A program made the position numbers and the translations under genes. The notes under the pieces are model-generated. The model had not been told where the DNA came from and did no database searches. It was given only the letters and a program-made list of their open reading frames with translations. DNA of 50,348 nucleotides from Methylobacter sp. (lineage in GTDB: Bacteria; Pseudomonadota; Gammaproteobacteria; Methylococcales; Methylomonadaceae). Below are positions 24,490 through 30,038 of the stretch, piece by piece. How positions within the stretch are numbered: the first letter of the stretch is position 1; every line of letters starts with the position of its first letter. The stretch lies in assembly GCF_030680395.1 (NCBI RefSeq), contig NZ_JAUXVR010000003.1, positions 1-50,348 of the forward strand, written 5' to 3'.

Positions 24490-25947
24490 CTAAGGTTTGC
24501 TTTTGTTTTTAAGGCTAAGTGCTGCGCCATGCAGGGCTTTGGCAAGGGTAGGGTGGGCGTGTATGGTTCTGGCCAAGTCTTCGCTACTGGCGGAAAACTC
24601 CATAGCCAGCACGGCTTCGGCAATCATTTCGGAGGCTTGTGTGCCAATAATATGAATGCCGAGCAGGGCATCGGTTTCGGCGTGTGCGATAATTTTAACC
24701 ATGCCCTCTGCTTGACCTACAGCTTGGGCGCGAGCAGTGGCTTTTAACGGAAAGGTGCCGATTTTGATGGGTTCGCCCATGGCCCTTAAGGCTTGTTCGG
24801 TTTGACCTACCCAGGCAATTTCAGGATCGGTAAAAGCAACGCTGGGCAGGAGGTCGTAATTGACAGGATGGTGAAGCCCCGCGACTTGTTCGGCAACAAA
24901 CAGGCCTTCTTCTATGCCTTTATGGGCAATCATGGGGCCAAGCAAGGTCAGGTCGCCTATTGCATAAACGCCGGGCAGGGTGGTGCGGCAGTTCTCATCA
25001 ACGTGGACATAACCGTTTTCATCGAGCAGTAAATTGGCTTCAGCGGCAGCCAGATTTTCAGTATTGGGTTTTCGACCGGATGCAACAATCAGCTTATCGA
25101 CACGCAGGGCATGAGTGCCTTCGCTATCCTGATATTCTACGGTGACCTTTCGGCTACGCTCAAGACTGGCTTTTTTACTGCCTTTTTTGGCAGAAATAAC
25201 CCGCGCACCCAGGCGCAGTTCCAGTCCCTGTTCAGTGTAGATACGATAGGCCTCGCGTGCAATTTGCTGGTCGGCCATGCTTAAAAACGATTCCTGCGCT
25301 TCCAGCAGAATGGTTTCAGCGCCGAGTCTGTTCCAAATGCCTGCTAGTTCAAGTCCTATAATGCCCGCACCGATAATAGCTAATCTCTTGGGTACCGCAT
25401 TAAGATTCAAAGCCATAGTAGAATCAATAATAAATTCATTATCAATCGGTGCGCAGGGTAAATCGATTGGGGAGGAGCCGGCGGCCAGGATAATATGTTT
25501 GGCTTCGATTATCGATACAGCGGAATGATCGGTCGGCGTGATTTCCACCAGCCGTTCATTGAGCAGCTTGGCCTCTGCCCGAATGCAGTCGATTTTGTAA
25601 TGAGCAAATGAGTCGGCGATTTGCCGGCTGAGTGCGTCAATAATATTGTTTTTACGCTGCATCATCTGCGCGATATCCACAGAGACACCTTCGACCTGGA
25701 TGCCGTGTTCTTTCAGGTTGTGGGTGATCGATTGATAAATTTTCGCTGATTCCAGCAGGGCGATGGACGCAACACAACCGGCGTTGAGATAAGTGCCTCC
25801 CAGATTGCTCCGGCCTTTTTCATCATGCCAGTTATCGACACAGGCGGTTCTTAAGCCTAGCTCGGCGCATCTGATAGCGCTGGAATAACCGGCAGGTCCT
25901 GCACCGATAACGATTACGTCAAACGATTTTGCTTGTTTTTTTGACAT
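24490..25947 (-). CDS. lpdA: dihydrolipoyl dehydrogenase homologue (E3) lacking a redox cysteine
   Basis: Third gene of the 2-oxoglutarate dehydrogenase operon; 485 residues. FAD- and NAD-binding motifs (VIVIGAGPAGYSSAIRCAELG, AIIGAGIIGLELAGIWNRLG), VYAIGDLTLLGPMIAHKGIEEG and the interface domain are well conserved. The active site is not. Where the family has GGxCLNxGCxPSKALL, this protein has GGTYLNAGCVASIALL: the first redox cysteine is Tyr53, Cys58 remains, and the usual Lys is Ile62. In the C-terminal catalytic pair HPTLxE, His465 remains but the Glu is Lys470. A normal disulfide cycle therefore seems impossible. The start is ATG at 25947, 4 nt after the sucB stop. It may be structural, otherwise changed, or replaced by another E3 encoded elsewhere. 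Confidence 0.9.
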   Translation of the reverse strand: MSKKQAKSFDVIVIGAGPAGYSSAIRCAELGLRTACVDNWHDEKGRSNLGGTYLNAGCVASIALLESAKIYQSITHNLKEHGIQVEGVSVDIAQMMQRKNNIIDALSRQIADSFAHYKIDCIRAEAKLLNERLVEITPTDHSAVSIIEAKHIILAAGSSPIDLPCAPIDNEFIIDSTMALNLNAVPKRLAIIGAGIIGLELAGIWNRLGAETILLEAQESFLSMADQQIAREAYRIYTEQGLELRLGARVISAKKGSKKASLERSRKVTVEYQDSEGTHALRVDKLIVASGRKPNTENLAAAEANLLLDENGYVHVDENCRTTLPGVYAIGDLTLLGPMIAHKGIEEGLFVAEQVAGLHHPVNYDLLPSVAFTDPEIAWVGQTEQALRAMGEPIKIGTFPLKATARAQAVGQAEGMVKIIAHAETDALLGIHIIGTQASEMIAEAVLAMEFSASSEDLARTIHAHPTLAKALHGAALSLKNKSKP

Positions 25948-25951
25948 AGTC

Positions 25952-27208
25952 TTATATGTTAAGCAATAGGTGAGCGGGCGCTTCCAGGCATTCTTTGATA
26001 GTGACTAAAAATTGCACGGCCTCGCGACCGTCAACCAATCGATGATCATACGATAAAGCCAGATACATGATCGGCCTGATAACAATCTGTCCGTTTTCAA
26101 CCACAGGCCGCTCTTTAATGGCATGCATGCCCAAGATAGCGCACTGCGGCGGATTGAGTATCGGTGTGGACAACATCGAACCGAAAATGCCGCCGTTGGT
26201 AATAGTAAACGTACCGCCTTTTAAGTCATCATAAGTCAAGGTGCCGGATCGGGTCTTTGCGCCGAAATCGACGATGCTTTGTTCGATGCCGGCAAAATCG
26301 AGTTGATCGGCATCGCGCAATACCGGCACGATCAGGCCGCGCTCGGTGCTGACCGCGATGCCGATGTCATAGTAGCCGTGATAGATAATGTCGTTATCGT
26401 CTATCGAGGCGTTAATGGCCGGAAAGCGCTTTAAAGCCTCAATAGAAGCCTTAACAAAGAACGACATAAAGCCCAGTTTGACGTGGTGCTTTTTTTCAAA
26501 GCGTTCTTTGTATTGGTTGCGAAGATCAATCACGTTTTGCATGTTGACCTCATTAAAGGTAGTCAGCATCGCCGCATTTTGCTGCGCCTGTAACAGGCGT
26601 TCGGCAACTTTGGCTCTTAGCCGGGTCATCGGGACGCGCTGTTCCGGCCGTAGATTTGAAATCCCCCTGCTTTCGGCTTCTACCTTTGGCGCATAAGGCG
26701 CAACGGTTTTTTCAGCTTCTTTGGGGGCTTCCGGCTCGGCTTTGGCGGCCGGAACTATCAGCTGAGCTTCTTGCAGGGTTTTTTTATGCAGGTAGTCAAG
26801 CACATCGGTTTTAGTCAGGCGGCCGTCTTTTCCGGAACCTTTGATAACGGAAGGGTCCAGCGTATTTTCAGCAATTAACCGGCGTACCGATGGGCTTAGC
26901 GGAATACCCGATTCTTCCTCATCCTCAGGTTCAGGGCTGGTCGCCGCTGTTTTTGGGCCTTCTTCTACGGCTTGAGGTTCCAGCAAAGCCAGTACATCTC
27001 CACCGACAACAATGGAACCGTCTTCCTTGAGGATTTTGCCAAGGATGCCGGATTCCGGCGCAGGAACTTCCAGTACAACTTTGTCTGTTTCAAGATCGAC
27101 GAGGTTTTCGTTTTTAATAACAGTGTCGCCGGGCTGCTTATGCCAAGTGATCAGCGTTGCATCTGAAACGGATTCGGGTAGGTTGGGAACGATGATTTCA
27201 ATGCTCAT
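25952..27208 (-). CDS. sucB: dihydrolipoyllysine succinyltransferase, E2 of 2-oxoglutarate dehydrogenase
   Basis: Transfers the succinyl group from E1 to CoA; 418 residues. The N-terminal lipoyl domain carries the lipoylated lysine in [19 protein letters not shown]. An acidic linker precedes the peripheral-subunit-binding domain ([39 protein letters not shown]). The catalytic domain (from about 190) ends with the active-site motif [16 protein letters not shown]. All key residues are intact, in contrast to lpd. ATG at 27208 starts 1 nt after the sucA stop with GGAAA upstream. Middle gene of sucA-sucB-lpd. Confidence 0.97.
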
Positions 27209-27209
27209 G

Positions 27210-30038
27210 TTATTTTCCTGAAAGTTTGCCGTAAAGGGCCGATTGAACGACTGCTTTTTGTTGTTCTATATGGACACGGAAATTGCCGACAGCAGGCGCT
27301 GCCGATGCTTCTCGACCGGCATAGGTCATGCTGATCCGGGAACCGATGTTGTCGGAAAAGTGATGTCGGGATTGATACCAGGCACCTTGATTTTGGGGTT
27401 CTTCCTGACACCAGATGAACTCTTTAAGCTGCGGGTATCTGCCGACTTCCGCTTTAAATAATTCATCGGGAAAAGGGTAGAGCTGTTCTATGCGGGCAAT
27501 AGCGACGTGCTTAAGGTCATCCTGGCGCCGTGCTTCCAGCAGATCGTAATAGACTTTGCCTGCACACATGACCAGGCGGGTCACTTTTTTGGGATTGATG
27601 TCGTCCTGCTCGCCGATGACGGGCAGGAATTGACCGTCGGTTAAATCTTCCAGTGTGGAAATCGCAAGCTTATGGCGCAGCAAACTCTTGGGACTCATAA
27701 CTATCAACGGTTTCCGATACGAACGCAGCATTTGGCGGCGCAACAAATGAAATATTTGCGCCGGCGTAGTCGGACTGCAAACCTGTATATTATGTTCGGC
27801 GCACAGTTGCAGATAGCGTTCCAATCGGGCGGAGGAGTGTTCCGGCCCTTGGCCTTCAAAGCCGTGCGGCAACAGCATCACCAGATTGCACATGCGCCCC
27901 CATTTGGTTTCGCCGGAACTGATAAATTGGTCGATAACCACTTGCGCGCCATTGGCAAAGTCGCCGAATTGCGCTTCCCAGATAACCAGAGTGTTCGGCA
28001 TCGTCGTGCTGTAGCCGTATTCAAAACCTAACACGCCTGCTTCGGACAGCAGGGAGTCGAAAATCTGCGTATTGCCCTGATCTTTGTCCAGGTGTTTAAG
28101 CGGCGTATAGGTTTTATTATGGAGTTGATTATGCAAAACAGCATGGCGATGTACAAAGGTGCCGCGACCGACATCCTGCCCGGTCAAGCGAACATTATGC
28201 TTTTCCATCAATAGCGTCGCGTAGGCCATGTTTTCGGCAAAACCCCAGTCCAGCGGCATTGCTCCGGCCGCCATTTTACGGCGGTTATCCATGACTTTGG
28301 CGACTCTGGGGTGCATTTCAAAACCGGTCGGCAGCCGCTGCATTCTATCGCTGCAAAAGCGCAGACGATCCATGGAAACCGAGGTGTTGCAGGGTGCTTT
28401 CCAGTCGCTGCCCAGAAATTTGTTCCATTGATTGGTGTACGGATAGGGACCATCGGACAGGATCGGTCTGGAAACAACTTCACCGGCTTCCAGCAGTTTT
28501 TGGTAATTTTGTTCCAACTCTGTCGCTTGTTCAACAGTGATAAGCCCGGTTTTAATCAGTTTTTCGGCGTAAAGTTTCCGCGTAGACTTAAGTTTGCGGA
28601 TTTTTTTATACATCAAGGGTTGGGTCGTCGAAGGCTCATCGGCTTCATTATGTCCAAGCCTGCGATAGCAAATAAGGTCGATGACTACATCTTTATTAAA
28701 AGTCATCCGGTAGTCCATTGCCAGTTTGGTTACAAAGATAACGGCGTCAGGATCATCGCCGTTGACATGAAAAACCGGCGCCTGGATCATGCTGGCCACA
28801 TCGGTGCAATAAAGCGTGGAGCGCGCGTCCAGCGGGTTACTGGTGGTAAAACCGATTTGATTGTTGATGACGATATGGACGGTTCCGCCGGTATAAAAAG
28901 CGCGGGTTTGCGACATGTTCAAGGTTTCCATGACGATGCCTTGTCCGGAAAAGGCCGCATCGCCGTGGATTAAAATGGGGATTACCGTATTTTTGCCGTT
29001 TATTCCTGCTCGGTCCTGACGGGCTTTAACCGAACCTTCGACAACCGGGTTGATGATCTCCAGATGCGACGGGTTGAATGCCAGCGTTATATGCACCGGA
29101 CCGCCGGGCGTACTGATGTCGGACGAAAAGCCCATGTGATATTTCACATCGCCGGTACCGACACCCGGCGAAAGCGGCGATGTACCGGCAAACTCATTAA
29201 ACAGGCTGGCCGGGCTTTTGCCTAAAATATTGACCAGCACATTTAACCGGCCTCGGTGAGCCATGCCGATCACAATCTCATTAACGCCTTTTTCGCCAAA
29301 TCCTTGAGTTAATTCATCCAGAATCGGGATCAGCGATTCGCCGCCTTCCAGAGAAAAACGTTTTTGACCGACAAACCGATTATGTAAATGGCTTTCTATG
29401 CCTTCCGCCGCAGTCAATAGCTTAAGCGTCCAGAGTTTTTTTTCAGGTTCCAGCTCCAAGTTGGCTTTAGAGCTTTCCAAACGGTTTATTATCCAGCGCC
29501 TGATATGGGTATCGACTATGTGCATGTATTCAGAGCCGATGCTGCCGCAGTAAATTTCTTGCAGATTGGCAATAATGTCGCGTAAAGGCAGTCGATCGCC
29601 ACCATAAAGCGCACCGGTATCGAACAAGGTATCCATATCAGGCTCGGAGAGACCGTAATAAGCGGGATCCATATCGGGAGGCGGCGGCAAGGTTCTGCCC
29701 AATGGGTTATTGGCTGCAATCTGATGGCCGCGGACCCGGTAATGATTAATAAGCCGGGCAACTGCCGATTGCTTTTTGACGCTTTCTTCGGTAAATCCTT
29801 GTAATTTGGCTAATCTACCTTGAGATTTAAGCGCAAGCTGCGCAAAGCGTTCTACGACAGGGCTGTGGGGTGTCTCAAAATCAGCGCCGTTGTGAATTTC
29901 GTTGAATCTTTTTTGCCAGCTGGATTCAACCGAGTCAGGGTCCTCGAGAAACCGTTCATATAAGTTCTCAACAAAGCCGGCGTTGCTACCATAGAGAGAA
30001 GAAGAATCTTGAAAAAGTTTAAGCAGCTTACTCATCAT
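27210..30038 (-). CDS. sucA: 2-oxoglutarate dehydrogenase E1
   Basis: Thiamine-diphosphate enzyme that decarboxylates 2-oxoglutarate in the TCA cycle; 942 residues, normal length. It has the E1 N-terminal peptide ([29 protein letters not shown]), [63 protein letters not shown] and the ThDP/Mg site [21 protein letters not shown] with [19 protein letters not shown]. Nothing is missing. The start is ATG at 30038 or 30035. First gene of the operon; the promoter lies in the 155-bp gap shared with the DUF2914 gene. Confidence 0.98.

Follow-up and report, generated by a model that had tools for sequence, protein, structure and literature searches.

The chemistry of dihydrolipoyl dehydrogenase (E3) requires a dithiol, and the interface domain of the enzyme bears both its dimer contacts and its contacts with E2. 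It is normal for one E3 to serve several complexes, as occurs in E. coli. Other E3-like flavoproteins depart from this scheme: the soluble, Si-specific NAD(P)+ transhydrogenase (SthA) has been described as having no complete active-site disulfide and retains the lysine of the PSK motif, and the mycobacterial LpdA-type NAD(P)H-quinone dehydrogenase, which has no working disulfide, reduces quinones; we know of no LpdA-type protein located in a sucAB operon. The solved Pseudomonas E3s, LpdG (PDB 5u8u) and the P. putida enzyme (6awa), are 47–48% identical to the protein described in this work, and share with it the fold, the length, the FAD and NAD motifs and the position after sucAB. Residues of human E3 that affect its affinity for the complex are named in the available part of PMC6776566. 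In the type I methanotrophs, the TCA cycle was long regarded as incomplete because 2-oxoglutarate dehydrogenase activity seemed to be lacking, according to the accessible portion of PMC10602362.

Here, we analysed a window of 50,348 nucleotides from a Methylobacter sp. (contig NZ_JAUXVR010000003.1), in which the gene that follows sucAB encodes an E3-like protein without the first redox cysteine. An initial annotation of this sequence had proposed that a disabled dedicated E3 could be a cause of the missing 2-oxoglutarate dehydrogenase activity, or that the protein may have taken another role.

Results

The lpd-like gene following sucAB has altered redox and catalytic motifs

The minus strand of the window carries sucA (E1 of 2-oxoglutarate dehydrogenase, 27210..30038), sucB (E2, 25952..27208) and an lpd-like gene that encodes a protein of 485 amino acids (24490..25947), in this order and nearly abutting, with 4 bp from sucB to the lpd-like gene. 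The open reading frames of sucA and sucB encode proteins that each score above the cut-off of their own family model, and the lipoyl, E3-binding and active-site motifs of SucB look intact, in agreement with the functional appearance of both genes in the initial annotation. The product of the lpd-like gene scores above the cut-off of the NCBIfam model for E3, TIGR01350 (444.9 versus 408.8 bits). It resembles SthA in being E3-like and in having an incomplete disulfide, but it falls far below the SthA model NF003585 (292.6 bits versus a cut-off of 465). It also differs from the mycobacterial LpdA type, since it scores 234.9 bits against a cut-off of 479 with the model for this quinone dehydrogenase (NF005883), and it remains below the cut-off of the mercuric reductase MerA model TIGR02053 (301.2 versus 454.45 bits).

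The altered redox-site helix, GGTYLNAGCVASI (residues 50–62, 25762..25800, minus strand), has a tyrosine in place of the first redox cysteine (Tyr53, minus-strand codon TAT, 25789..25791) and an isoleucine in place of the lysine of PSK (Ile62, 25762..25764). The second redox cysteine position, Cys58, is retained (25774..25776, coordinates calculated from the reading frame and the motif), and the protein thus presents Tyr53–Cys58 where E3s have the redox-active CxxxxC pair. The His-Glu catalytic dyad is also incomplete, given that the HPTLAK sequence (24538..24555) retains the catalytic His465 and has Lys470 instead of glutamate. Unlike canonical E3s, this protein lacks the CxxxxC dithiol and the PSK lysine and, in its genus, the catalytic glutamate. 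Both Rossmann motifs of E3s are present: the FAD-binding GxGxxG reads GAGPAG (25888..25905) and the NAD-binding one reads GAGIIG (25354..25371), the three glycines of the latter being conserved in at least 115 of 116 family orthologues. The three substitutions and the intact FAD and NAD motifs had all been read correctly in the initial annotation; the range that it assigned to the altered site, 25775–25805, includes part of the motif, but Ile62 and Lys470 lie outside it.

An AlphaFold2 model built from 70 sequences (pLDDT 93.1), which replaced an earlier and poor model built from 16 (pLDDT 65.1), predicts an E3 fold. All 50 PDB matches listed for it are E3s, and the best listed is 6awa (TM 0.95). 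According to the homology with E3s, Tyr53 would be placed adjacent to the flavin. In contrast to the canonical E3s, the f1 orthologues that were displayed have one additional residue after GDL (GDLTLLGPM).

The first cysteine is absent from this gene throughout the family

In a sample of 61 genomes of the order, of which 37 belong to the family of the window, an orthologue without the first cysteine was found in 36: 33 of the 37 family members and one genome each in families f2, f5 and f6. An intact orthologue was present in seven genomes (families f7 and f8) and a broken copy in one (G030), and the remaining 17 had none. In a separate scan, limited to the best 80 of at least 520 confirmed matches, the cysteine was absent from the 10 Methylococcales loci and present in the 70 other loci; Methylobacter, Methylovulum and Crenothrix polyspora are among the named records in these best 80.

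A larger sample consisted of 151 genomes of the family, in which an orthologue was called at E 1e-100 or better. It was found in 117 of them, and was absent or under this limit in 34, 29 of which have a completeness of 90% or more and a contamination of 5% or less. All 117 orthologues were read; one of them ends at a contig edge, which leaves 116 at some positions. Position 53 is Y in 60, H in 27, F in 27, N in 1 and V in 1, so that Y, H or F occupies it in 114 of 116 and cysteine in none. Position 62 is M in 48, I in 35, L in 18, V in 14 and F in 1, and is never lysine. Position 58 is cysteine in 90 of 116 and S, G, N, D or T in the other 26. The catalytic histidine is retained in 97 of 117 and gone in 20, and the glutamate is retained in 99 of 117. 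E200, which adjoins the NAD motif, is retained in 113 of 116 and D332 in all 117.

A sequencing or assembly error at 25789..25791, the caveat attached to the initial annotation, was ruled out, because the tyrosine is common to all 22 other sampled genomes of the genus and the loss of the cysteine is family-wide. The possibility that Tyr53 and Lys470 are both shared by relatives was borne out in part. Tyr53 occurs throughout the sampled genus; Lys470 is found in 22 of its 23 genomes (G003 has glutamate) but in just 12 of the 117 family orthologues, which equals the number of members of this genus in that sample. Lys470 is therefore a trait of the genus and not of the family.

We also compared 43 altered sequences with 77 E3s, omitting the duplicates L012, L054–L058, L064 and L068 and the divergent f6 copy L051. 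The two cysteines, the lysine, the histidine and the glutamate are present in the 77 comparison E3s, whereas the first cysteine and the lysine are missing from all 43 altered proteins, a contrast that is due neither to chance nor to error. The 77 intact E3s have 117 conserved positions, 87 of which persist in 90% or more of the altered set. The 30 changed positions include 52–54, 58–62, 202–204, 336, 340, five within 397–409, 465, 470 and 474; by homology, several of these would be active-site residues.

Some copies are unusual. The divergent copy L051 (G052, f6), with the motif GGTSLLNGCIPAK, has lost the first cysteine and retains the second one and the lysine, and it is located on a different contig from sucAB. 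Two altered E3 genes (L053 and L054) were found in G009, one of them on a 5.4 kb contig, which could represent a duplication or a mixed bin. L292 (G110, motif TQGVVCHPGCLETF) and L293 (G088) share just 49% and 48% identity with the window protein, and are possibly further degenerate forms.

Origin, selective constraint and operon position

In a maximum-likelihood tree of 62 proteins that included L051, a single branch (85/99, recovered in 82% of 200 bootstrap trees) separates all 30 rows without the cysteine from the others. In a second tree, which excluded L051 and had 25 other gammaproteobacteria as its root, the label is accounted for by a single change (SH-aLRT 99). Both trees, whose alignments kept the active-site columns (a small bias), are compatible with the cysteine having been lost once in the methanotroph operon E3.

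Selection was evaluated from dN/dS by Nei–Gojobori counting; since the median dS is near 0.9, the values are approximate. The set for the altered gene comprised 24 sequences of the genus, taken from 23 genomes (G009 was counted twice), and 274 pairs, after dropping saturated pairs (2 of 276, and 6 of 120 for the PDH-type Lpd). The median dN/dS of the altered gene, 0.101, was higher than those of sucB (0.076), the PDH-type Lpd (0.065) and the stand-alone Lpd (0.066). By this measure, the altered gene is under purifying selection in the genus. The values per region, obtained from fewer pairs (for example, 258 of 276 remained in the first FAD region and, in the PDH-type Lpd, 68 of 120 in the His-Glu region), revealed that constraint is unevenly distributed along the protein. 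The NAD domain (0.063 versus 0.057 and 0.064 in the PDH-type and stand-alone Lpds, respectively), the central domain (0.052 versus 0.044 and 0.069) and the altered active-site helix (0.042 versus 0.035 and 0.032) are about as constrained as in the true E3s, whereas the first FAD region is slightly relaxed (0.136 versus 0.114 and 0.111), the His-Glu stretch is relaxed (0.152 versus 0.053 and 0), and the interface domain is relaxed about threefold (0.109 versus 0.035 and 0.033). Given that the altered helix is as constrained as that of the true E3s, the site evolves in the manner of a working site and not of debris. The purifying selection and this altered but constrained helix favour the idea, already contemplated in the initial annotation, that the protein has taken another role.

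The altered gene adjoins sucB in the 33 family genomes of the first sample that carry it, as determined by comparison of coordinates; the distance is at most about 400 bp in all of them and at most 60 bp in 29. This retained position points to a link with SucAB. One explanation, less probable than the reading proposed in the Discussion, would be a catalytically dead structural or regulatory subunit that fills the E3 sites on SucB, lowers the share of active E3 and throttles the NADH output of the TCA cycle, with FAD and NAD merely stabilizing the fold. In addition to the operon position, this explanation is favoured by the presence of an E3-binding domain in SucB, by the retention of the interface-domain residues E450 and F451 (113 and 116 of 117 family orthologues, respectively), and by a TCA flux that varies with the substrate in a relative, as described in the part of PMC6456754 that was available. 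However, a relaxed interface together with an NAD domain as constrained as that of the true E3s is the opposite of what a pure scaffold predicts. The relaxation of the interface weakens the idea of docking in general, and argues against a strong dependence on it.

Losses and disrupted copies

In G030, sucAB is present and the operon E3 copy (L052 5759–7164) is in separate pieces with a stop, which represents a natural loss of the gene in a family member. The frame is split in G153 and there is one stop in G179; 116 of the 117 family rows have no stop inside the match. The absence of the orthologue from 34 of 151 family genomes (or its position under the limit) and the broken copy of G030 indicate that the gene is not essential everywhere and can be lost. 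In five stretches of family f4 (L143–L146 and L158), sucB is present, accompanied by sucA in four, and no E3 of this type adjoins it; these lineages must take their E3 from elsewhere.

These losses and disruptions, and a dN/dS that exceeds that of the true Lpds (0.101 versus 0.065), are what would be expected from the slowly decaying relic of a redundant E3 that no longer has a function. We regard this as improbable, since dN/dS is far below 1 across the 24 sequences and reaches only 0.042 in the altered helix, the reading frames are free of stops in nearly all of the family orthologues, and the replacement residues are themselves restricted.

Canonical E3s are encoded elsewhere in the genome

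The genome of the window (4.36 Mb, 49 contigs) encodes two more E3-like proteins, which share 38% and 35% identity with the window protein; the initial annotation had proposed to look for a second lpd with both cysteines outside the operon. They share the E3 superfamily with the window protein, but differ from it in having the cysteine pair, the lysine, the histidine and the glutamate (CLNVGCIPSK and HP..E in both). One of these genes stands alone, and the other adjoins an E2-like gene whose product is 33% identical to SucB and which was taken as the pyruvate dehydrogenase E2. A second, stand-alone canonical lpd such as L002 (G000:C4) is frequent in the genus of the window. Among the matches listed, the genomes of the other family genera had a single canonical-type match, and G026 had none. 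The cysteine pair, the lysine and the HP..E motif were intact in the 45 canonical copies that were read, including the two of the window's genome; these regions were picked by hand from the E3 matches of relatives and are a subset of all canonical matches.

The complete genome of Methylotuvimicrobium alcaliphilum 20Z (G082) has the Tyr/Met version of the operon E3. Its matches above the cut-off of the E3 model are this altered gene, an intact E3 located directly after another E2, and a frame of 727 residues encoding a flavoprotein that barely exceeds the cut-off (412.0 versus 408.8 bits). The motif GGTYINAGCVSSM was found in the five sampled genomes of this genus, g11 (G032, G082, G104, G121 and G135). 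The plasmid contig of G032 matches the plasmid of 20Z with 98% identity in the compared stretch. For M. buryatense 5GB1, the available text of PMC10602362 describes a TCA cycle that is complete on methane and incomplete on methanol; for M. buryatense, that of PMC6456754 reports an oxidative cycle that is complete on methane and that, on methanol, contributes little to malate. Provided that 5GB1 is like the sampled members of its genus in this respect, the operon E3 without the cysteine coexists with a working cycle in Methylotuvimicrobium.

These observations bear on the proposal that the disabled operon E3 inactivates the 2-oxoglutarate dehydrogenase complex and thereby accounts for the activity missing from type I methanotrophs. 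It has in its favour that none of the 116 readable family orthologues has the first cysteine, and that the activity was held to be absent in the earlier work cited above (PMC10602362, accessible portion). However, intact E3s exist in the relatives and in the window's own genome, the sharing of one E3 among complexes is ordinary, and the sampled Methylotuvimicrobium genomes have the same tyrosine, while M. buryatense is reported to run a complete cycle on methane. For these reasons the causal reading was set aside, and the altered protein is probably not the cause of the absent activity; an inactivated complex seems quite unlikely. Least plausible of all is an E3 still working by an unusual route, such as Cys58 alone or a cysteine elsewhere in the chain, which is in line with the retention of Cys58 in 90 of 116 orthologues but conflicts with its replacement in the other 26, with the loss of the catalytic histidine in 20 of 117, and with the known E3 chemistry, which requires the cysteine pair.

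Discussion

Taken as a whole, the complete absence of the first cysteine and of Lys62 among 116 orthologues strongly supports the claim that the E3 chemistry is disabled, and selection maintains the gene in most of the family although it has lost residues needed for that chemistry, so that a different role is probable. Our main reading, to which we assign a probability of about 50%, is that the protein is a conserved pseudoenzyme whose ancestor was the dedicated E3 of the 2-oxoglutarate dehydrogenase complex, and that it would now be a thiol-free, NAD(H)-facing flavoprotein. The sequences show that the dithiol, the active-site lysine and, in the genus of the window, the His-Glu dyad have been lost, while the fold and the FAD and NAD motifs have stayed under selection. 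From established E3 chemistry, oxidation of dihydrolipoyl-E2 by this protein should be impossible. A complex whose dihydrolipoyl-SucB is not reoxidized by its own neighbour must use a canonical lpd from elsewhere in the genome; the supply would come from the lpd beside the other E2 and, in many genomes of the genus, also from the second, stand-alone lpd.

With less certainty, the motifs and the selection on them suggest that the pseudoenzyme may still bind FAD and NAD(H), and that, being encoded with SucAB, it is perhaps docked on them. Selection has preserved a flavin fold in which an aromatic or hydrophobic face, where the dithiol stood, is combined with a complete NAD motif. Two modes of action can be envisaged: NADH might reduce the flavin, which would then transfer electrons directly to a non-thiol acceptor in a diaphorase-like manner, or the protein might sense NADH and tune the complex. 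The loss of the lysine near the flavin could hamper hydride transfer. Two further observations count against this reading, namely the aspartate that replaces E216 in 18 of 116 family orthologues, and the f6 copy in which the lysine and the second cysteine persist.

The distribution of the altered gene was also compared with that of C1 metabolism. Hexulose-phosphate synthase (TIGR03128, above the cut-off) was found in none of the seven genomes with an intact operon E3 and in 33 of the 36 with the altered one (the exceptions are G017, G029 and G037); this pattern rests on about one evolutionary event and is thus only suggestive. The two groups are not distinguished by the presence of the pMMO family (PF02461), because divergent copies occur in six of the seven intact-E3 genomes and none was found in six of the 36 altered ones.

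In the literature searched, which covered titles and abstracts and left most subscription journals outside, no description of this altered E3 was found. The conversion of a catalytic subunit of core metabolism into a conserved pseudoenzyme over most of a bacterial family is unusual, and it is relevant to the long-standing debate about the TCA cycle in type I methanotrophs. Since the standard family model labels the gene as a working lpd, metabolic models built on this label would give the complex the wrong E3 gene. A more speculative and, for now, doubtful extension of the pseudoenzyme reading is that the dedicated E3 of an ancestor of the RuMP methanotrophs became a new kind of subunit. This thiol-free flavoprotein would read or discharge NADH at the complex through a rebuilt aromatic or hydrophobic site. 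If this were true, SucAB would be reliant on a shared E3, and its flux would be coupled to the state of NADH during methane oxidation.
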